A DNA stretch of 64,000 bases from the NCBI RefSeq assembly GCF_001306175.1, contig NZ_LGKN01000004.1:186001-250000 (forward strand). Direction: 5' to 3'. This document shows, piece by piece, positions 33,256-43,819 of this stretch; the stretch's first letter is position 1, and the number at the start of each line of letters is the position of its first letter. The translations under genes were made by a program, and so were the position numbers. This DNA comes from Ardenticatena maritima (GTDB lineage Bacteria > Chloroflexota > Anaerolineae > Ardenticatenales > Ardenticatenaceae). The notes beneath the pieces were generated by a model, which worked only from the letters and a program-made list of their open reading frames with translations, was not told the DNA's origin and made no database searches.

Positions 33256-34245
33256 TCAAGACCGAAGCAGGCTGAGGTATTTGGCGCCGCCATCAGGCAA
33301 GACGGTGACGACAACCCCTTCTTCCAACTGGCGCGCCACTTGCAAAGCGGCATACACGGCGGCACCGGCGCTGAACCCCACAAACCAGCCCTCTTCACGC
33401 GCCAGGCGCATGGTGGTTTCATACGCATCCGCCGGCGAGACATAGCGCGTCTCATCCACGACGCTCGGATCGTAAATGCCCGGCACAATGGCTGTTTCAA
33501 GGTGCTTCAACCCCTCAATCACAGCCAACTCGTCTTCAGGTTCAACAGCAATGACGCGCACATTGGGGTTCACACGGCGCAAAAAGCGCGCTGTGCCCAC
33601 CAGCGTGCCACTCGTGCCGACGCCCGCCACAAAGTGGGTAATGCGCCCACCCGTCTGCGCCCAAATTTCAGGGCCTGTGTGGCAAAAGTGCGCCCGCCAG
33701 TTGGCTGGGTTGTTGTACTGGTCGGCGTAGTAGTACCGCTCCGGATTTTGCGCCACAATCTCACGCACCAGGCGAATCGCGCCGTCCGACCCTTCGAGCG
33801 GGTCGCTGAAAATCAACTCCGCACCATACGCCTGCAAAATGCGCTTGCGTTCTTCGCTGACATTCTCCGGCATCACCAGCGTGACCCGATACCCTTTCAC
33901 CGCGCCAATCCAGGCATAGGCAATGCCGGTGTTGCCGCTGGTGCTGTCAATCAAAATTTTGTCCGGCGTCAGGTCGCCGCTCCGTTCGGCGCTTTCGATG
34001 ATATGCAACGCGGCACGGTCCTTGACCGACCCGCCCGGATTGAACCATTCGGCTTTGGCGTACACCTCCACCGACGGCGGCAAATCAGCGGCCAGGTGGT
34101 GCAAGCGCAGCAACGGCGTTTCGCCAACATGATCGAGAATACTCACCGGTTGTTGTAAATGCACCCCGCGACGGGCGACATCGCGAAACGCCGTGCAACT
34201 ATCCTCAAGCAAAATTGTCTCCGGCAACGGTTGCCGCGCGACCAT
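33256..34245 (-). CDS. cysM: Cysteine synthase (CysM/CysK family)
   Basis: A 329-residue fold-type II PLP enzyme. The PLP lysine is in GGSVKDRAA near residue 74, the phosphate loop is TSGNTGIAYA near 106, and GTSGTLVGTARFL near 212 is the second glycine loop. It joins O-acetylserine (or O-phosphoserine) with a sulfur donor. Its start overlaps the stop of the rhodanese-E1 gene (TAATG), and a ubiquitin-like sulfur carrier lies just upstream. The context therefore points to a CysM type that uses a thiocarboxylated carrier protein. The N-terminal extension of about 30 residues before VSILDHVGETPLLRL is unusual. Confidence 0.9.
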   Translation of the reverse strand: MVARQPLPETILLEDSCTAFRDVARRGVHLQQPVSILDHVGETPLLRLHHLAADLPPSVEVYAKAEWFNPGGSVKDRAALHIIESAERSGDLTPDKILIDSTSGNTGIAYAWIGAVKGYRVTLVMPENVSEERKRILQAYGAELIFSDPLEGSDGAIRLVREIVAQNPERYYYADQYNNPANWRAHFCHTGPEIWAQTGGRITHFVAGVGTSGTLVGTARFLRRVNPNVRVIAVEPEDELAVIEGLKHLETAIVPGIYDPSVVDETRYVSPADAYETTMRLAREEGWFVGFSAGAAVYAALQVARQLEEGVVVTVLPDGGAKYLSLLRS

Positions 34246-35462
34246 TAGTGCACCTCGACAGGTTGAGCGCTTTCTTCTTCATCGTGGCGCGGGAACGGAA
34301 CGCCGCAAAACTCTTCATAGTCAATCAATTCGGTAATGGTGGGCTCTTCACCACAGACCGGGCATTTGGGGTTCTTGCGCAAACGCACCTGGTGGAATTG
34401 CCCTGCCAGTGCATCGTAGAGCAGCAAACGCCCGATGAGCGGTTCGCCAATCCCCAGAATGAGTTTGATGGCTTCCATTGCCTGCAAACTGCCGATAATG
34501 CCCGGCAGAACCCCCAGCACACCCCCTTCCGCGCATGATGGCACTTCGCCCGGCGGCGGCGGTGTGGGGAAGAGACACCGATAGCACGGGCCTTCATCGG
34601 CTTTGAAAACCGTCACTTGCCCCTCGAATTGGAAAATCGAACCGTCCACCAGCGGCTTCCCCGCCATGACGCAAGCATCATTGACCAGATAGCGCGTCGG
34701 GAAGTTGTCCGACCCATTCACCACAATGTCGTAGTCCTTGATGATGTCCATGATGTTTTCGCTGGTCAGCGGTTCACGATAGGGCACAACCTTCACATCC
34801 GGGTTGATGGACGCAATCGTCTCAGCCGCCGACTCAACCTTGGGACGCCCAATGTCATCCACGCCGTGCAAAATCTGGCGCTGCAAGTTGCTCAAATCCA
34901 CCACGTCGAAATCCACAATCCCCAGCGTCCCGACGCCGGCCGCCGCCAGGTAGAGCGCCGCCGGCGACCCTAATCCGCCGGCGCCAACAAGCAACACCTT
35001 AGCGTCGAGCAACTTCCACTGGCCTTCTTCGCCCACTTCCGGAATCAGAATGTGGCGCGAATAACGAATGCGCTGCTCAGGTGAAAAGATACGCGGCAGG
35101 TCAAACTTCAAGCCCTGGCTCTTCCAGGCGCCAAAGCCACCCGCCAACGAAAAGACATTCTTGTAGCCCATTTCTTTGAGCGTCTTCGCAGCAAACGCCG
35201 AACGCACACCCCCCGCGCAGTAGAGCACAATCGGCGCTTCGCGGTCAGGTTCAACTTCTTCAATGCGCCATTCAAGATGCCCGCGCGGAATGAATTTGGC
35301 GCCGGGAATGTACCCTTGTTCAAATTCATCCAACTCGCGCACGTCAATCAGGCGAATCGGCTCGCCGCGTTCCAGCCATTCGCGCAATGTTGAGACGTTG
35401 ATTTCCTGAATTTCTTGCTTGACGCGTTGCAAAAATTGCTCGCGTGTCAATCGGTCACTCAC
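34245..35462 (-). CDS. Rhodanese - ThiF/MoeB-like E1 fusion, sulfur-carrier activating enzyme
   Basis: A 405-residue protein. Residues about 18-118 are a rhodanese domain with C82 in YCAGGVRS. Residues about 125-390 are an E1-like adenylyltransferase with the ATP loop GAGGLGS at 160-166 and zinc pairs CYRC and CPVC. It should adenylate the C-terminal glycine of a ubiquitin-like carrier and pass it sulfur. The more familiar MoeZ/Uba4 has the E1 first and the rhodanese last, so the order here is inverted. The carrier gene lies 70 bases upstream and cysM overlaps its end, giving a complete sulfur-relay set. Confidence 0.88.
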   Translation of the reverse strand: MSDRLTREQFLQRVKQEIQEINVSTLREWLERGEPIRLIDVRELDEFEQGYIPGAKFIPRGHLEWRIEEVEPDREAPIVLYCAGGVRSAFAAKTLKEMGYKNVFSLAGGFGAWKSQGLKFDLPRIFSPEQRIRYSRHILIPEVGEEGQWKLLDAKVLLVGAGGLGSPAALYLAAAGVGTLGIVDFDVVDLSNLQRQILHGVDDIGRPKVESAAETIASINPDVKVVPYREPLTSENIMDIIKDYDIVVNGSDNFPTRYLVNDACVMAGKPLVDGSIFQFEGQVTVFKADEGPCYRCLFPTPPPPGEVPSCAEGGVLGVLPGIIGSLQAMEAIKLILGIGEPLIGRLLLYDALAGQFHQVRLRKNPKCPVCGEEPTITELIDYEEFCGVPFPRHDEEESAQPVEVH

Positions 35463-35532: not shown

Positions 35533-35811
35533 TTACCGCCCACCGGCCATCGCCGGGATGATGCTCACTTCATCATTTTCACTCAAAGGTGTTTCTTCGC
35601 CCTGCAAAGCACGAATTTCTTCGCCGTTGACGAACACGTTGATGAAACGCTTGATTTCACCACGTTCTTCATCCACAAGGCGGGCTTTCACACCCGGATA
35701 CTGCGCTTCCAGCGCCTCCACCAAATCGCGAATGGTGCTGGCTTGCACTTCCACACGCGCCTGCCCACCAGTCAGACGCCGCAAGGGAGTTGGAACATAC
35801 ACAATTGCCAT
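35533..35811 (-). CDS. Ubiquitin-like sulfur carrier (MoaD/ThiS/CysO family)
   Basis: A 92-residue beta-grasp protein. Hallmarks are IVYVPTPLRRLTGG, TIRDLVEALEAQYPG, RFINVFVNGEEI and the ending SIIPAMAGGR. Carriers of this family work through a C-terminal Gly-Gly that becomes a thiocarboxylate. Here a single Arg follows GG, so trimming may be needed first, as for some carriers processed by JAMM-type proteases. The neighbouring activating enzyme and cysM suggest a CysO-like role in cysteine synthesis rather than molybdopterin. No JAMM protease gene is in the window. Confidence 0.87.
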   Translation of the reverse strand: MAIVYVPTPLRRLTGGQARVEVQASTIRDLVEALEAQYPGVKARLVDEERGEIKRFINVFVNGEEIRALQGEETPLSENDEVSIIPAMAGGR

Positions 35812-35893: not shown

Positions 35894-36766
35894 TTATGGC
35901 TTTTCAATGGGCGCCCGAACCAGGTTGCCCCATTCCGTCCATGAACCGTCATAGTTGCGGACATTCTCGAAGCCCAGCAGATACTTCAACACAAACCATG
36001 TATGGCTGCTGCGCTCGCCAATGCGGCAGTAGGCAATCGTCTCCTTGTTCGGGTCAAGCCCTTGTTCCTCGATGTAAATCTTGCGCAATTCTTCGGCGCT
36101 TTTGAACGTCCCGTCCGGGTTCACCGCCCGCGACCAGGGGATGTTTTTGGCTTTGGGAATGTGCCCCCCACGCAAAGCACCCTCTTGCGGGTAGTCGGGC
36201 ATGTGCAGTTTTTCGCCGGTGTATTCCTGGGGTGAGCGCACATCCACCAACTGCGCGTCATCGCGTTCGATGAATTGGTGCACATATTGGCGGAAGACGC
36301 GCCACGGTTCATCGTTGCGTTGCGGAACCTTGTAGTCCGTCGGCGGATAAGAAGGCACTTCGCGCGTCAAGGGGCGTCCTTCTTCAATCCACTTTTGACG
36401 CCCACCGTCCATGATTTTGGCGTTGGTGTGCCCAAACAGTTGGAACACCCAAAAGGCGTAGCACGCCCACCAGTTGTTCTTATCGCCGTAGAAGACCACA
36501 AGCGTATCGTTGCTGATGCCTTTCTCGCGCATCAAATTCGCAAATTGCTCTTCCGTCAGGTAATCGCGAATGACGGGGTGCTGCAAATCGGTGTGCCAGT
36601 CAATTTTGACAGCGCCGGGAATGTGCCCCATATCGTAGAGCAGCACATCTTCATCGCTCTCCACGATGCGCACATTGGGGTCGTCCAGATGTTGGGCTAC
36701 CCACTCAGTTGAAACAAGCACATCCGGCACAGCATATCCGCGTTCTTCAATTTGCTTCTCGGCCAT
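35894..36766 (-). CDS. Thiosulfate sulfurtransferase, two-domain rhodanese
   Basis: A 290-residue protein of two rhodanese domains. The first (about 15-135) is inactive by lack of a loop cysteine, and the second carries C247 in [12 protein letters not shown], the CRxGxRS persulfide loop. It moves sulfane sulfur from thiosulfate to an acceptor such as cyanide, thiols or a partner protein. ATG 36766 follows AGGAGG with ideal spacing; the frame extends upstream but without a better start. It leads the sulfur-relay operon and would supply sulfur to the rhodanese-E1 protein and its carrier. Its leader of about 370 bases is highly structured. Confidence 0.92.
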
Positions 36767-37135
36767 ACGTTTGCCTCCTGTCTGCGTTTGGTTGGCTCTC
36801 TCCGTCATACAGTCCCACTTCACGTGGGCTGTCCCCACGGCACAATGCGCCCAGGGCAACAAGATGGGGCTTCATTGCACCGTGGGGACAACACAGCAGT
36901 GTGTGGCTTGACATGCAAAAAGGCCGACGGTGGCTTGGGCAATATGCCCCACTCTCCGAAGAGAGTGCGCCCCAACAGTTAGCCACTCCTCTCGCGAGAA
37001 GTGTCGAACTGCGGGAGCGTTAGCCGCCGTCGGCCTCGAAAGGCGAACCGGCGTTCGTCAGGCGGTGGCTAACGCCCCCGCCTGATACAGATGCATCTCT
37101 GGTTGGTGTAGAAGGCTTGTGTCTTGTTCATCATG
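36767..37135 (-). ncRNA. Structured 5' leader / candidate cis-regulatory RNA of the sulfur operon
   Basis: This gene-free stretch holds several strong pairings. P1: 36922-36935 with 37022-37035 (13 of 14 match), followed on the minus strand by TTTTT. P2: 37011-37031 with 37061-37081, which uses the same bases as P1, so the two exclude each other. A C(UUCG)G hairpin at 36950-36967 (minus strand), a palindrome TCTCGCGAGA at 36990-36999, a hairpin 37058-37065/37078-37085, and an 18-base helix 36830-36847/36873-36890 with two G-U pairs on the minus strand add to it. A sigma-70 promoter lies just upstream. No known riboswitch or T-box sequence was recognised; on the plus strand P1 and P2 pair slightly better, so strand is not certain. 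Confidence 0.5.
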
Positions 37136-37141
37136 GCTCAA

Positions 37142-37170
37142 AGTATGACCAAAACAAGCGTCTTTGTCAA
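37142..37170 (-). promoter_or_regulatory. Promoter of the sulfur operon leader
   Basis: On the minus strand a perfect TTGACA, a 17-base spacer and CATACT lie immediately after the SufT-like stop. The predicted start point near 37135 gives a leader of about 370 bases to the sulfurtransferase ATG. Confidence 0.65.
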
Positions 37171-37174
37171 CTTT

Positions 37175-37540
37175 TCACCATTCCATGCCCGGCCCAAAGC
37201 CCAGCAAACCGGGGTCTTCCATCATGCTGGGGTCCCACGGTTCGGGCAGCACTTCCACATGCACCTCACGGTCCGGCACAACCTGCGCGATTTTTTCCTT
37301 GGCTTGCTGAACCAGCCAGGGCGCATAGGGGCAGAATGGCGTTGTCAGCAGCATGTGCATCTCAACGCGATTCTCTTCCACCAGAATATGCTTGATCAGC
37401 CCCAATGTCACCAGGTCAAGCCCGATTTCCGGGTCTACCACCTGGCGCAAGTTTTCGCGGATGGCTTCCGCCAATTGCTCCGGCGTCACCTGGGATGTGT
37501 TTTGTGACTGTTCTTGTTCGTTGCGGGTTTCTTCACTCAT
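37175..37540 (-). CDS. MIP18/DUF59-family Fe-S assembly protein (SufT-like)
   Basis: A 121-residue protein with a polar N-terminus rich in Glu/Gln and the DUF59 core: VVDPEIGLDLVTLGLI near residues 34-49 and MLLTTPFCPYAPWLVQQ near 63-79, including the conserved Cys. Family members (SufT, MIP18/Cia2, PaaD-like) help mature Fe-S clusters. It is the last gene of the sufU2-sufS-sufU-Rieske series, 30 bases after the Rieske gene. The unusual acidic tail ends in GPGMEW. Confidence 0.87.
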   Translation of the reverse strand: MSEETRNEQEQSQNTSQVTPEQLAEAIRENLRQVVDPEIGLDLVTLGLIKHILVEENRVEMHMLLTTPFCPYAPWLVQQAKEKIAQVVPDREVHVEVLPEPWDPSMMEDPGLLGFGPGMEW

Positions 37541-37570
37541 TTTGGATGCTCCTTTCAGGCATACGCTTCC

Positions 37571-37879
37571 TTACACTTTCACTTGAATCTCATCATCAAC
37601 AATGCGGACTTCATAGGTGTTGACGGGCACAACCGCCGGAAAGCGCAGAACTTGCCCGGTGCGAACGTCAAAACGGGCGCCGTGGCGCGGGCATTCGATG
37701 GCACAGCCGTACAATTCCCCTTCGCCAAGCGGACCACCGTCATGCGTGCAGATGTCATCAATGGCGAAAATACCATCTTCACAATGGGCGATTGCCAAAC
37801 GTTTCGAGCCCACATGCACCACTTTGGCATGCCCCAGTGGAACATCGGCAACTTTGGCAACTGTCACGAATTCACTCAT
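37571..37879 (-). CDS. Rieske-type ferredoxin
   Basis: A 102-residue Rieske [2Fe-2S] protein. The first ligand pair is in CTHDGGPL and the second in CPRHGARF, which give the Cys-His and Cys-His ligands; the layout matches NirD-like or dioxygenase-type soluble ferredoxins. ATG 37879 is preferred: GGAG lies 9 bases upstream, and earlier starts would overlap sufU. It probably carries electrons for, or receives clusters from, the SUF machinery beside it, though its partner is not known. Confidence 0.9.
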   Translation of the reverse strand: MSEFVTVAKVADVPLGHAKVVHVGSKRLAIAHCEDGIFAIDDICTHDGGPLGEGELYGCAIECPRHGARFDVRTGQVLRFPAVVPVNTYEVRIVDDEIQVKV

Positions 37880-37898
37880 GGTGTATGACTCCATTGGG

Positions 37899-38300
37899 TT
37901 AGTTCCACTCATCTTCTTCGCCAGGCCAGGTTGTCAATCCGTACAGCCCGGCTTTCAGTACCTTCAGGCTCAACAAGGCGCACTTGATACGCGCCGGCGT
38001 CAGGGTTTCCATGCCCAGTTGTTCCAGCAAATCCTCTTTGCTCAACTGGCGCACCTCTTCGATACTCTTGCCTTTGACCATCTCCGACAAAATCGAAGCG
38101 GACGCCTGGCTAATGGTGCACCCTTCACCATCCCACTTGATGTCGGCGATGTGGTCATCTTCCAGTTTGATGTCCATGTGAATGCGGTCCCCGCATACGG
38201 GGTTGTGTTCCTCGTGTGAGATGTCCGCGTTCGGCAACTTCCCTTTGTTGCGCGGATGTCGGTAATGGTCGAGAATAAATTCGCGGTAGAAGTCGAGCAT
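37899..38300 (-). CDS. sufU: SufU-type Fe-S/zinc sulfur-transfer protein
   Basis: A 133-residue SufU/IscU-fold protein. The three conserved cysteines lie in NPVCGDR, GEGCTISQ and RIKCALL. In Gram-positive type SUF systems SufU takes persulfide sulfur from SufS by zinc-ligand swapping. It starts 27 bases after sufS. A second, diverged copy lies on the other side of sufS. Confidence 0.93.
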   Translation of the reverse strand: MLDFYREFILDHYRHPRNKGKLPNADISHEEHNPVCGDRIHMDIKLEDDHIADIKWDGEGCTISQASASILSEMVKGKSIEEVRQLSKEDLLEQLGMETLTPARIKCALLSLKVLKAGLYGLTTWPGEEDEWN

Positions 38301-38327
38301 CGTTGGTCACTCCTCTTCGCATCTTTC

Positions 38328-39551
38328 CTACGCAAACACCTTCCGAACCACATGCAACGCTTCGACCAGGCGGTCAATCTCTTCGCGCGTTGTGTAGACG
38401 TAGAAACTGGCGCGCGTGGTCGCAGGGACGTTGTAGCGCTGCATGAGCGGTTGCGCGCAATGGTGCCCCGCACGGACCGCCACCCCTTCCGCATCCAGAA
38501 TCGAGGCGATATCGTGCGGGTGAACACCGTCCAACACGAACGCCGCCACACCGCCCTTGTCAGCCGCTTTGCGTGGCCCCAGCAAGCGCAAGCCGGGCAC
38601 CTCGCTCAGGGCTTCCAGCGCATACTCCGTGATTTCGATTTCGTGCGCACGCACGTTTTCCATGCCCAATTCGCTCAAAAAGTCCACCGCCGCGCCAAAC
38701 CCAATGGCTTCGGCGATAGCGGGCGTACCGGCTTCAAACTTGTGGGGCAAATCCGCCCAGGTGGAGCGTTCCAGCGAGACAAAGGCAATCATGTCGCCGC
38801 CACCCATGTAGGGGGGCATGGCTTCCAACAATTCACGGCGCGCCCACAGCGCCCCGATACCGGTTGGACCAGCCATTTTGTGCGCGCTGAACGCCAGAAA
38901 ATCAATATCCAGCGCTTGGACATCCACCGGCATATGCGGCACGCTCTGCGCCCCATCCACCAGCACCAACGCCCCAACAGCGTGTGCTTTTGCCGTCATC
39001 TCGGCGATGGGGTTGATTGTGCCCAGCACATTGCTCATGTGTGTGACAGCCACGAGCTTGACGCGCTCATCCAGCAAGCGGTCGAAGGCGTCCATGTCAA
39101 GATACCCTTCGTCCGTCACCGGAACGGCGCGCAACTCAAAGCCGATCTGGTCGCGCAAGATTTGCCACGGCACAATGTTGGAATGGTGCTCCATCTCGGT
39201 AATCAGGACGGCGTCATTGGGGGTCAGGTTGGCACGCCCCCACGTTGCCGCCACCAGGTTGATGGCTTCGGTGGCATTGCGCGTGTAGATGAGTTCGCGC
39301 GGGCTACGCGCATTGATAAAGCGCGCAATACGTTTGCGGGCACCTTCATACGCCGCCGTGGCTTCTTCGCTGAGCGTGTGCACCCCACGATGCACATTCG
39401 CATTGTATTCGCGATAATAGCGGTCCATGGCGTCAATCACAGCCAGCGGCTTCTGCGAAGTTGCCGCACTGTCGAGATAGACGAGCGGCTTGCCGTGCAC
39501 CTGACGTTGTAAAATCGGGAATTGTTGACGAATAGCTTCAATGTCGTACAT
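38328..39551 (-). CDS. sufS: Cysteine desulfurase SufS
   Basis: A 407-residue group II desulfurase that draws sulfur from cysteine as a persulfide. The PLP lysine is in FSAHKMAGPTG near residue 223, the active cysteine is in RAGHHCAQPL near 360, and the N-terminal YLDSAATSQKP pattern is typical. ATG 39551 gives the canonical MYDIEAIRQQFP start; the longer frame adds 21 residues with no ribosome site. It lies between two SufU paralogues. Confidence 0.95.
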   Translation of the reverse strand: MYDIEAIRQQFPILQRQVHGKPLVYLDSAATSQKPLAVIDAMDRYYREYNANVHRGVHTLSEEATAAYEGARKRIARFINARSPRELIYTRNATEAINLVAATWGRANLTPNDAVLITEMEHHSNIVPWQILRDQIGFELRAVPVTDEGYLDMDAFDRLLDERVKLVAVTHMSNVLGTINPIAEMTAKAHAVGALVLVDGAQSVPHMPVDVQALDIDFLAFSAHKMAGPTGIGALWARRELLEAMPPYMGGGDMIAFVSLERSTWADLPHKFEAGTPAIAEAIGFGAAVDFLSELGMENVRAHEIEITEYALEALSEVPGLRLLGPRKAADKGGVAAFVLDGVHPHDIASILDAEGVAVRAGHHCAQPLMQRYNVPATTRASFYVYTTREEIDRLVEALHVVRKVFA

Positions 39552-39576
39552 AGTTCTTGCCTGCCTATTCACTTGA

Positions 39577-40014
39577 CTACCGTTCTTGGCGAAATTGCGC
39601 CCAATCGGTTTCATCGGCTTCGGTCTCTTTGTTCAACGATGTGCGCAACGCAAGACGCAAGGTGTACAAAGGCAACATGACACACCGCAAACGAGCGGAC
39701 ACCACATCCTCGCCAAACCACGCCGCAAAATCTCGGCTGTCCATCGCCAGCACTTCGTCAACGCGCTTTCCCTGGACCAGTTCAGCCAGGAGCGATGCCG
39801 CTGCCTGGCTAATGGTACACCCTTCACCTTCCCAGGTCATACGCGCCAAACGCTGATTGGCGTCATCGAGCACAACAAACACACTCACACGGTCGCCACA
39901 CGATGGGTTGTGCCCCTGCATGACGATAGGCGCCTCATGCAGGCGCTCGCGAAAACGCGGACGCTCAAAATGGTCGAGAATGCATTCGAGTTGCTCTTGT
40001 CGGTTCATGGGCAT
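39577..40014 (-). CDS. Second SufU/NifU-like scaffold protein
   Basis: A 145-residue SufU-fold protein that keeps the three key cysteines in NPSCGDR, GEGCTISQ and RLRCVML. It differs from the copy after sufS in the region between the second and third cysteine and in its C-terminus (TEADETDWAQ). It is the first gene of the sufS transcript, and sufS begins 25 bases later. ATG 40014 or 40008 could be used. It may be a distinct scaffold or a regulator of SufS. Confidence 0.85.
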   Translation of the reverse strand: MPMNRQEQLECILDHFERPRFRERLHEAPIVMQGHNPSCGDRVSVFVVLDDANQRLARMTWEGEGCTISQAAASLLAELVQGKRVDEVLAMDSRDFAAWFGEDVVSARLRCVMLPLYTLRLALRTSLNKETEADETDWAQFRQER

Positions 40015-40074
40015 GCGGTATCTGCTTGTTTGCCGGTTGCGCTATGATACCGCTATCCCCGCCAAAAGTCGAAC

Positions 40075-40097
40075 AGGGACGCCTGCGCGGCGTCCCT
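40075..40097 (-). terminator. Terminator between sufD and sufU2
   Basis: AGGGACGCC (40075-40083) and GGCGTCCCT (40089-40097) form a perfect 9-bp stem with a 5-base loop, 18 bases after sufD, with a TTTT about 8 bases beyond on the minus strand. It splits the suf locus into two transcripts. Confidence 0.7.
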
Positions 40098-40114
40098 GTG
40101 GTGTGCAAGCACTC

Positions 40115-41473
40115 TTAGGCGTTTTCCATCCGCTCGTGAATGACCGTTTTGAGACGGTCGCGCACGGTGCGCAACGGGATACGGTCAATCACTGGTGCAA
40201 AGAAACCGTCCACAATCAAGTTAGTGGCTTCCTTGCGCGGAATACCGCGCGCCATCAGGTAGAAGAGTTCTTCTTCGTCCAGCTGGCTGATGGTTGCACC
40301 GTGGGTACAACGCACGTCGTTGGCTTCGATTTCCAGCATGGGAATGCTGTCGGCGTGCGCCTGCGGGCTGAGCACAAGGTTGCGGTTGGCCTGGTAGGCG
40401 TCGGTTTGTTGGGCGCCCTTTTCCACCTTGATCAACCCGCGATAGACGGTGTGGGCGTTCCCCAGGAGAGCGCCCTTGTAGAGCAAGTCGCTACTGCAAT
40501 GGGTGGCGATGTGGCGCTGCAACGTGTGGTTCGCCATGTATTGCTCGCCCGTCGGGAAGTAAATCCCGTTCAGGTACGCCATACCGCCGTCGCCTTCCAG
40601 CCAGACTTCGGTTTCAAAGCGAGTGAGCGAGCCACCCAACTGACCACTGCTCCAATTCACAACCGTGTTGCGCCCCATGCGCGCACGCTGTGAGGCGAGG
40701 TGATAGACGTTGTTCCCCCAGTTTTGCACGTTGAGGTAGTTCACCTGCGCGTTATCGCCCGCCAAAATCTCCACCGCGCCTGTAACGAAGGAGACGCCGG
40801 GCAGGTCATTGCTCAGGTACTCGTCGAGTACCGTGACCGCGCTGTTGGCTTCGGCCACGACCAGCACGTGGGGGAAGACCAACGTGCCGGCTTCATCCAA
40901 CCAGTGCACCAGCTGAATAGGCTTCTCCAACGCAACATTCTTGGGCACAAAGACCACAAACCCACCGCTCAGCAGCGCGGTGTGCAGCGCCTTGAATTTA
41001 CCTTCATCGGCGCGCACAATTTGCGCCAGGTAGGGTTCCAGCAAGTCGCCATGTTCGCGCACCGCAGTCAGCAAGTCGGCAACGATGACGCCCTGCTCGC
41101 GCAAGTCGTCATTCACGTCAGCAAACACCAAGCCGCCTTCGCGGCGCACCAACAACGCCGAGCGGCGGTCGGCTTCGCGCAGAATGCCTTGCAACTTTTC
41201 GGGCAGGTCTGTTGTCGCCGCAACGGCTTCGCTCTCCGGCGAGACCAGGTGCAGGCTCTGCACGGTCTTCACCAGCAAATCGGTATCAATTTTGCGCCAT
41301 TCTTCATCTTTCTGGTTGCTCGGCCAGGGGGTATCCAAAAAGAGCCGCCAAGCGTCTAACCGGCGCTGGCGCAGCCAATCGGGCTCGCCAAAACGCGCAC
41401 TCAACGCTTCGACGGCTTCGCGGCTCAATGCCTCGAAAGCCAGCGTTTTCTCAGTCACGGTTTCGTCCTCCAC
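40115..41473 (-). CDS. sufD: Fe-S cluster assembly protein SufD
   Basis: A 452-residue beta-helix protein of the SufBC2D scaffold complex. The N-terminal section has DEEWRKIDTDLL (typical SufD/B lead), the middle is a long beta-helix, and the C-terminus carries DVRCTHGATISQLDEEELFYL and RGIPRKEA, diagnostic of SufB/D. It follows sufB by about 98 bases that contain a hairpin (41525-41554). It is the last gene of the sufC-B-D transcript. Confidence 0.94.
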   Translation of the reverse strand: MEDETVTEKTLAFEALSREAVEALSARFGEPDWLRQRRLDAWRLFLDTPWPSNQKDEEWRKIDTDLLVKTVQSLHLVSPESEAVAATTDLPEKLQGILREADRRSALLVRREGGLVFADVNDDLREQGVIVADLLTAVREHGDLLEPYLAQIVRADEGKFKALHTALLSGGFVVFVPKNVALEKPIQLVHWLDEAGTLVFPHVLVVAEANSAVTVLDEYLSNDLPGVSFVTGAVEILAGDNAQVNYLNVQNWGNNVYHLASQRARMGRNTVVNWSSGQLGGSLTRFETEVWLEGDGGMAYLNGIYFPTGEQYMANHTLQRHIATHCSSDLLYKGALLGNAHTVYRGLIKVEKGAQQTDAYQANRNLVLSPQAHADSIPMLEIEANDVRCTHGATISQLDEEELFYLMARGIPRKEATNLIVDGFFAPVIDRIPLRTVRDRLKTVIHERMENA

Positions 41474-41524
41474 ATGTCCAAAATTCTCGCCCCTTGGGCG
41501 GGCGTCATTGTCATTTCACAGGAA

Positions 41525-41554
41525 GAGGGCCAGCAACAGATGCTGCCAGCCCTC
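41525..41554 (-). other. Hairpin in the sufB-sufD intercistronic region
   Basis: GAGGGC (41525-41530) pairs with GCCCTC (41549-41554), with CAGCA/TGCTG inside. There is no T tract, so it may stabilise or process the mRNA rather than terminate it. Confidence 0.4.
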
Positions 41555-41571
41555 GTATTCCGTTCGCAGGC

Positions 41572-42990
41572 TTAGCCGACGGAGCCTTCCATTTCCAGCT
41601 GGATGAGGCGGTTCATTTCAACCGCGTATTCCATGGGTAATTCCTTGACGATGGGTTCGATGAAGCCCGACACAATCATGTTGAGGGCGTCGGCTTCGCT
41701 CAGCCCACGGCTCATCAGGTAGAAGAGCTGCTCTTCACCCACCTTCGAGACCGTGGCTTCGTGCCCCACGCTCACATCGTCTTCACGAATGTCAATGTAG
41801 GGATAGGTGTCCGAGCGGCTTTCCGGGTCAAGGATGAGCGCGTCGCAGACGACGTTGCTCTTGCTGTGATGCGCGCCCGGATAAATCTGCACCAGGCCGC
41901 GGTACCCAGCGCGCCCACCATCCTTGGAGATGGATTTGCTGGTGATGTTGCTGGTGGTGTACGGCGCAGCATGCACCGCTTTCGCGCCAGCATCCTGGTG
42001 CTGACCACGGCCGGCAAAGGCAATCGAAAGCACTTCGCCATGCGCCCCCTTGCCCATCATGTAGATGGCGGGGTATTTCATGGTGACTTTCGAGCCGATG
42101 TTGCCGTCCACCCATTCCATCGTGGCGTCTTCGTACGCCACAGCGCGCTTGGTCACCAGGTTATAGACGTTGGTTGACCAGTTCTGAATGGTGGTGTAGC
42201 GCACACGTGCGCCCTTCTTGACGATGATTTCCACCACGGCACTGTGCAGCGAGTCGGTCGTGTAGATGGGGGCGGTACACCCTTCCACGTAATGCACATA
42301 CGAGCCTTCATCGGCGATGATAAGCGTGCGTTCAAACTGCCCCATGTTTTGCGCGTTGATACGGAAGTAGGCTTGCAGGGGCATTTCCACACGCACGCCC
42401 GGGGGCACGTAGATGAACGAGCCACCCGACCAGACGGCGCTGTTCAACGCGGCGAATTTGTTATCCGACGGGGGCACTACCGTGCCAAAGTACTCCTTGA
42501 ACAGGTCGGGGTACTCTTTCAGCGCCGTATCGGTGTCCAGGAAAATCACACCCTGGCGTTCAAGTTCCTTCTTGATGTTGTGATACACCACTTCGGATTC
42601 GTACTGCGCACCAACACCCGCCAGGAATTTTTGTTCGGCTTCGGGAATCCCCAGGCGGTCGAACGTGCGCTTGATGTCTTCGGGAACGTCATCCCACGAA
42701 CGCGCCTGCTTTTCAGCCGGCTTGATGTAGTAGTAGATGTCGTCAAAGTTAATGCCCGACAGGTCGGCGCCCCACGTCGGCATGGGCTTCTTCCAGAAGA
42801 TTTCGAGCGCCCGCAAGCGGAATTCGCGCATCCAGTCGGGTTCGCCCTTCATCCAGGAAATTTCTTCCACAACCTCGCGCGACAACCCCTTCTTGGCCTT
42901 GAAGACATACTTTTCGGGGTCGTGGAAGCCGTATTTTTCGGCATATTCTTTGTTGATCAGTTCAATTTGCTGGCGTTCATCCAATGCCAT
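41572..42990 (-). CDS. sufB: Fe-S cluster assembly protein SufB
   Basis: A 472-residue core scaffold protein that builds clusters with SufC and SufD. The N-terminus ([36 protein letters not shown]) is typical of SufB, as are [19 protein letters not shown] and, near the C-terminus, [19 protein letters not shown] and SRGLSEADA. Length is standard. It starts 3 bases after the sufC stop. Confidence 0.96.
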
Positions 42991-42993
42991 AGG

Positions 42994-43770
42994 TTATGCC
43001 TCCTTTGCGAGTTCCTCGCGAACCCAGTCGTAGCCCTTTTCTTCGAGTTGGTGCGCCAGTTCAGGACCGCCTTCAGCAACAATGCGGCCATCCACCAGCA
43101 CATGCACGAAGTCGGGCTTGATGTAGTTGAGGATGCGCTGGTAGTGCGTAATCACAAGCACACCCATCCCGAATTGGTCTTTCAGTTTGTTGACACCTTC
43201 GCTCACCACACGCAGGGCGTCAATGTCCAACCCTGAGTCGGTTTCATCGAGGATGGCGATTTTCGGTTCCAGCACCGCCATTTGCAGAATTTCGGCGCGC
43301 TTCTTTTCACCACCGGAGAACCCTTCGTTCAGGTAGCGACCGGCAAACGAGCGGTCAATACCGAGCATTTCCATCTTTTCGATGAGCATCTTGCGGAATT
43401 CCACCGGCGTGATGGGCGGTTCACCGCGCGCTTCACGGTGCGCGTTGATTGCCATGCGCAGGAAGTTCGCCATCGTCACACCGGGGATGGCAACGGGGTA
43501 CTGGAACGCCAGGAAAAGCCCCACCTTGCTGCGCTCGTCGGCTTCCATTTCGAGGACGTTTTCGCCGTTGAAGAGAATTTCGCCTTCGGTGACTTCATAC
43601 TTGGGATGACCGGCAATGGTGTATGCCAGCGTGCTCTTGCCCGAACCGTTCGGGCCCATCATCGCGTGAACTTCGCCTTCGCGAATGGTGAGGTTCACAC
43701 CCTTGAGGATTTCGTTTCCATCCACACTCACGTGCAGATTCTTGATTTCGAGGACTGCTTTCTCGCTCAT
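42994..43770 (-). CDS. sufC: Fe-S cluster assembly ATPase SufC
   Basis: A 258-residue ABC-type ATPase that drives the SufBCD scaffold. Walker A is GPNGSGKST near residues 35-43, the signature is [11 protein letters not shown] near 145, and Walker B is [11 protein letters not shown] near 170. ATG 43770 gives the [12 protein letters not shown] start; the frame extends 8 residues upstream without a better site. It leads the sufCBD transcript, with a consensus promoter and a palindrome in its leader. Confidence 0.96.
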
Positions 43771-43819
43771 GGTGGTACTTTGCCTCCATTTCATTCTTCA
43801 AAAAATAACAGTGGCGACA

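Follow-up and report, generated by a model that had tools for sequence, protein, structure and literature searches.

Closest described systems

The uORFC-8-2 motif was predicted before cysS in Rhodobacterales as an upstream ORF with Cys codons, hairpins, and an intrinsic terminator, and ribosome-mediated attenuation by shortage of Cys-tRNA was proposed for it (PMC8632094). Leader peptides with runs of Cys were also predicted before cys operons in Mycobacterium, Propionibacterium, and Bifidobacterium, without terminators (PMC1262725). The cysteine-responsive control in mycobacteria was described as translation attenuation by Canestrari et al. 2020 (cited in PMC9094748 and PMC13236596). The trp-type attenuators, e.g., those of Corynebacterium and Streptomyces trp (PMC1262725), have codons for the product amino acid, 1:2, 2:3, and 3:4 pairing, and an intrinsic terminator.

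The locus described here lies in the window, i.e., the whole stretch of 64,000 nucleotides of Ardenticatena maritima DNA that was analysed. The leader is best explained as a ribosome-mediated, cysteine-responsive transcription attenuator, in which hairpin A is the 1:2 pairing, helix P2 the 2:3 pairing, and helix P1 the 3:4 pairing. The probability of this reading is put at roughly 0.88, with the switching deduced from the arrangement of the parts.

uORFC-8-2 is the nearest published transcription attenuator. Both leaders have a short Cys-codon ORF, hairpins, and an intrinsic terminator. However, uORFC-8-2 belongs to Alphaproteobacteria, carries tandem Cys codons at positions 14-15 inside the first stem, and controls the cysteinyl-tRNA synthetase gene. 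The window leader belongs to Chloroflexota and has CxC near the stop codon instead of tandem Cys codons, and the genes behind such leaders are those of cysteine biosynthesis and sulfur assimilation, i.e., sulfurtransferase, cysK/cysM, and sulfite reductase, rather than cysS.

The actinobacterial leaders likewise have Cys codons near the stop codon upstream of cys operons, and those of mycobacteria are leaderless. No terminator hairpins were found in them, whereas the window leader has a predicted terminator and a covarying antiterminator, and its ORF reads C-I-C rather than the Cys run of the mycobacterial polycysteine sORF.

Three features are shared with the trp-type attenuators. The window has a short ORF whose codons include those of the amino acid that the downstream genes produce, an intrinsic terminator (P1 and a U-run) between this ORF and the first gene, and an antiterminator which shares bases with the terminator and adjoins the regulatory codons. 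The differences are that the window leader would respond to Cys, that its stop codon falls within region 2 with a constant spacing to the Cys codons, and that its terminator arms enclose a large structured insert.

In the literature searched, no paper joins Chloroflexi, transcription attenuation, and leader peptides. A new version of the Cys attenuator, widespread in one Chloroflexota class and placed on cysteine-synthesis operons, is well supported. It extends leader-peptide attenuation to Chloroflexota and is likely how this large and little-studied class of bacteria controls cysteine.

Leader layout and operon genes

A sigma-70-type promoter, TTGACA-17-CATACT, was confirmed at 37142..37170 on the minus strand, where the sequence-only reading had placed it. 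It matches the consensus at 10/12 positions (1 such match found vs 0.2 expected). Transcription is expected to start at ~37136-37134, just before a leader ORF. The leader had been described as gene-free, which is incorrect, as an ORF of 21 codons, MMNKTQAFYTNQRCICIRRGR, had been missed at 37134-37069 on the minus strand. No Shine-Dalgarno sequence was found before its ATG, so translation would have to be leaderless, and may begin directly at the expected transcript start. The ORF starts ~7 bases after the -10 element in the window and in a same-genus genome (L068), whose promoter has the same spacing, and some 30-45 bases after it in other loci. The parts of the leader lie between 37170 and 36766 on the minus strand. 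The leader folds far better than shuffled sequences (z -9.35). The C(UUCG)G hairpin noticed earlier inside the leader is present.

The regulatory codons, i.e., UGC (Cys), AUC (Ile), and UGU (Cys), are at 37087..37095 on the minus strand and were present at 22/22 loci. The window ORF has only two regulatory Cys codons, which end five bases ahead of a P2 strand, and its stop codon (UAG) sits within the 5' strand of P2.

The first regulated gene (35894..36766, minus strand) encodes a sulfurtransferase with two rhodanese domains (Pfam Rhodanese 1.4e-36). It is followed on the same strand by genes for a ThiS/MoaD-like, i.e., CysO-like, sulfur carrier (35533..35811; Pfam ThiS 1.2e-17), a ThiF/MoeB-like activating enzyme with a rhodanese domain (34245..35462; Pfam ThiF 1.7e-90, Rhodanese 6.3e-22), and a CysM-like cysteine synthase (33256..34245; Pfam PALP 1e-75). 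For the last gene, the NCBIfam cysKM model was above cut-off, and the cysM model gave the best E-value but fell just below its own cut-off. The attenuator would tie this rhodanese/ThiS/ThiF/CysM sulfur-carrier route to cysteine supply.

A run of SUF-type iron-sulfur genes was found at 37175-43794 on the minus strand. It was read as SufC, SufB, SufD, a scaffold-like protein, SufS, SufU, Rieske, and SufT-like, with the last two genes checked by Pfam. The run ends 4 bases ahead of the leader promoter, so the P1 terminator may also end suf transcripts.

Competing hairpins and terminator

Hairpin A (37058..37085, minus strand), UCAGGCGG/CCGCCUGA with the inner part GGC-GUUA-GCC, pairs regions 1 and 2 (z -5.5) and covers the codons after the Cys codons together with the stop codon. 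Region 1 directly follows the Cys codons, and region 2 surrounds the stop codon. In P2, region 2 (5' strand, 37063..37081, minus strand) pairs with region 3 (3' strand, 37011..37029, minus strand; CGGCGGCUAACGCUCCCGC), with one A-C mismatch. P1 is the terminator domain (36917..37035, minus strand; z -9.0), in which region 3 pairs with region 4, AGCCACCGUCGGCC-U5. Its arms, 37022-37035 and 36922-36935, have one C-A mismatch, and TTTTT follows at 36921-36917. P1 with its U-run and P2 had been pointed out before as mutually exclusive helices, and the overlap was borne out, with 37022-37029 common to the 3' strand of P2 and the 5' arm of P1. A simple terminator scan omits P1 of the window, as its loop limit is 8 bases.

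The first gene begins ~150 bases past the terminator. A distal hairpin of 18 bp lies in between (36826..36895, minus strand). It is very stable and was also found in the same-genus genome, with a double change from C-G to U-A, and was not found in three other genomes of the family. Its U-G and G-U pairs form on the minus strand only, in agreement with the sequence-only reading. This lineage-specific hairpin is outside the conserved element and is probably no part of the switch.

The hairpins bear on the view that the Cys codons act through translation, i.e., by coupling or by exposing the ribosome site of the first gene, and not through a terminator. Such control is reported for the Cys-rich leaderless sORFs of mycobacteria in the citing papers mentioned above (PMC9094748, PMC13236596), and the window ORF also looks leaderless. 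However, a hairpin with a U-run comes after the ORF here and an intrinsic-terminator-like one after 28/31 of the leader ORFs examined, a conserved competing helix overlaps the terminator hairpin, and the first gene lies beyond the terminator at the distance given above. Control at translation instead of through the terminator is very unlikely.

Covariation of P2

Homologous leaders do exist, and their comparison, a check that had been proposed, revealed compensating changes in P2. Counted from the T of TGC, the start of the best downstream partner for the region after the Cys codons is at +14 in 21/22 loci and at +12, running through +14, in the remaining one, and an 8-bp core is in register at 22/22. 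The offset of region 2 is constant across the loci, and its partner strand follows the sequence changes. GCGGGGGCG is found with CGCTCCCGC or CGCCCCCGC, GCGAGGGCG with CGCCCTCGC, GCGGGGTCA with TGACCCCGC, and GCGGGGCCA with TGGCCCCGC.

The partner 9-mer of the locus' own variant was found in 21/22 loci (8-mer in 22/22), and those of other loci's variants in 5/88. Over 21 rows, which include other peptide types, 164/168 cells pair; 10,000 partner shuffles averaged 149, and none matched this value. The 3' partners were picked here as the best complement, which favours pairing. The cross-variant comparison is the cleaner control for this reason. Owing to the high GC content, individual loci score only modestly against shuffles.

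Attenuation model

Transcription would begin just ahead of the leader ORF. With charged Cys-tRNA available, the ribosome would pass UGC-AUC-UGU and reach UAG, covering the 5' strand of P2. P2 would then be blocked, and the P1 hairpin with its U-run would terminate transcription. When Cys-tRNA is short, the ribosome would stall at the Cys codons, so that hairpin A is blocked and the 5' strand of P2 stays open. P2 would then capture the 5' part of P1 ahead of synthesis of the P1 3' arm, and the polymerase would read on into the sulfurtransferase-ThiS-ThiF-CysM operon.

For comparison with the model, the window RNA was folded as an intermediate that stops short of region 4, with a ribosome footprint imposed as a constraint. 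With the second Cys codon in the A site, the probability of P2 was 0.95-0.98. Without a ribosome, hairpin A formed at 0.99. With the stop codon in the A site neither helix formed, a geometric result because the mask covers the P2 strand. In the first-Cys-codon stall, hairpin A was still mostly formed (0.91). At full length and equilibrium, P1 wins in every ribosome state, so antitermination must be kinetic. When the folding was generalised, longer intermediates favoured P2 on the UGU stall in only 6/22 loci; for loci other than that of the window, the simple folding model is clear for short intermediates only.

Related loci in Chloroflexota

The full leader has an 84% relative in the same-genus genome. 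Three more genomes of the family carry the leader core (82-86%), and in every case the same sulfurtransferase gene comes directly after it. Across families, conservation is highest within the leader ORF. Its end reads CIC-x-x-R-G-[RHQ]-stop at 22 Chloroflexota loci, i.e., the window and 21 others. The core DNA at each locus is TGC ATC TGT NNN NGN CGN GGN CRN TAR, which ends a short frame with an upstream start codon.

The core pattern matched 15/396 genomes of the class, and the reversed control matched none. A scan of 84,980 genomes with the CIC-x-x-R-G-[RHQ]-stop form gave 26 stretches, from Thermoflexus, Ardenticatena, other Ardenticatenales, and several Chloroflexi, with a few chance matches in other phyla. 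In the phylum-wide scan of 400 genomes with the CIC pattern, matches came from the window and two Thermoflexus-type genomes only. This count is too low a measure of the spread, since the Cys arrangement differs in other families. No other CIC spelling with the same tail was found in the class scan with mismatches or in the phylum scan with TGY ATH TGY. Across the 22 loci, TGC ATC TGT is invariant even at wobble positions, partly as a consequence of the search pattern.

Secondary matches of the core pattern were rejected because they lie in other long frames or without a usable leader ORF before a sulfur gene. These chance matches were inside yidC and a GAF-type gene of the same genome, and in Facklamia, Mucilaginibacter, Brevundimonas, Neptunomonas, Mariprofundus, Rhodobacteraceae, an actinomycete, and one viral contig. 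A REP-like repeat was also discarded, as the element is present once in the genome in this form. The core also contains another short frame, MHLYQAGALATA, which was rejected too. Two Thermoflexus-type loci have CTG where it should start, so its start codon is not conserved, and families differ in where it stops, whereas the CIC frame ends at a constant place.

Cysteine leaders upstream of cysteine-synthase genes

For 78 cysteine-synthase-family genes in genomes of the class, up to 480 bases of upstream sequence were taken without use of the motif. For each of the 20 residues, the sense and antisense strands were scored for ORFs of 8-36 codons whose last 11 positions hold that residue twice, either side by side or with one position between. 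Cys-clustered short ORFs were found in 32/78 sense vs 4/78 antisense regions (p 4e-8, which overstates independence because the genes are related and some genomes are from one genus). No other residue passed 0.05 in this 78-gene set. Two of the 32 ORFs fall at the expected place of the preceding moeB-type gene and probably arose by chance; the remaining 30 are from 13 families. These leaders include MNTFIHCLCLRRGS, MSYTAKTIACACSCFERA, MTQPLVCICL, and MQHRAVCCCLKMGSNRL. RNA sequence and even peptide vary among them and the Cys codons are kept, and the switch helix often begins 4-5 bases past the last Cys codon. In NCBIfam, the three leader peptides searched hit no family, and the finding points to some 50 such tiny genes without a protein-family model (three tested).

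The variation of the peptide speaks to a possible nascent-peptide arrest, in which the conserved C-I-C...R-G-R end would stall the ribosome on a sulfur metabolite and not by codon starvation. The invariant wobble positions of UGC AUC UGU in the CIC loci and the conserved peptide end would fit such an arrest. However, P2 pairing accounts for the codons that follow the Cys pair, and in other families the peptide changes to CLC, CSC, CCTC, or CCC and the Cys codons stay. Arrest is highly improbable; if true, an arrest peptide coupled to a terminator would be a new, so far undescribed type of sensor for the cysteine pathway.

Direct binding of a sulfur compound or uncharged tRNA-Cys by the RNA, i.e., a riboswitch or T-box, was suggested by the long conserved structured leader and the sulfur genes downstream. 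The covariance-model search gave no Rfam 15 match at the gathering threshold, whether to SAM and other sulfur-related riboswitch classes, to the T-box sequence and specifier stem, or to any other model. Permissive matches, at E up to 10, were chance-like, most of them to microRNA models at the distal hairpin. What the loci have in common is a sequence that reads as a Cys-codon ORF, and elsewhere in the class other Cys-codon ORFs with different RNA replace the core, which an aptamer would not allow. Such direct sensing is extremely improbable. Of the sequence-only reading, the cis-regulatory terminator/antiterminator leader of a sulfur-carrier cysteine operon survives, and the metabolite aptamer or T-box is not supported. 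Its tRNA sensing holds in a broad sense, as charged Cys-tRNA is probably measured, most simply by the translating ribosome.

That the terminator merely ends the upstream suf-type operon, with the ORF there by chance, is suggested by the same-strand SUF run ending 4 bases ahead, but this has a close to negligible likelihood and is already contradicted by conservation with the downstream gene, since related genomes keep the element before the same sulfur genes where the upstream gene differs, and by the Cys enrichment and covariation.

Downstream genes of the proposed attenuator loci

The genes after the 22 loci are those for sulfurtransferase, CBS-type synthase, or sulfite/nitrite reductase, or else cysK/cysM, which some loci combine with cysE or a JAB-domain protease; at one locus (L057) the stretch stops at the contig end before a downstream gene is identifiable. 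At L073, L066, L056, and other Thermoflexus-type loci, a cysteine synthase and then a JAB-domain protease are placed under the same attenuator. The CysO-CysM-Mec route likewise pairs cysteine synthase with a JAB-domain protease.

A second Cys leader, MCLCICPQRGPRRPRG, was found in the same genome as the window (L084, ~866-919; G000 contig C3, ~831 kb), before a 653-residue sulfite/nitrite reductase frame. Its terminator is GCCCCCG...CGGGGGC-TTTTTT. At another locus (L037, 1610-1710), a terminator-like hairpin, GAGCTCAGGG..CCCTGGGCTCTTTT, precedes a second hairpin, GACCAAC..GTTGGTCTTTTT, and the two may be stops acting in series before sulfite reductase.
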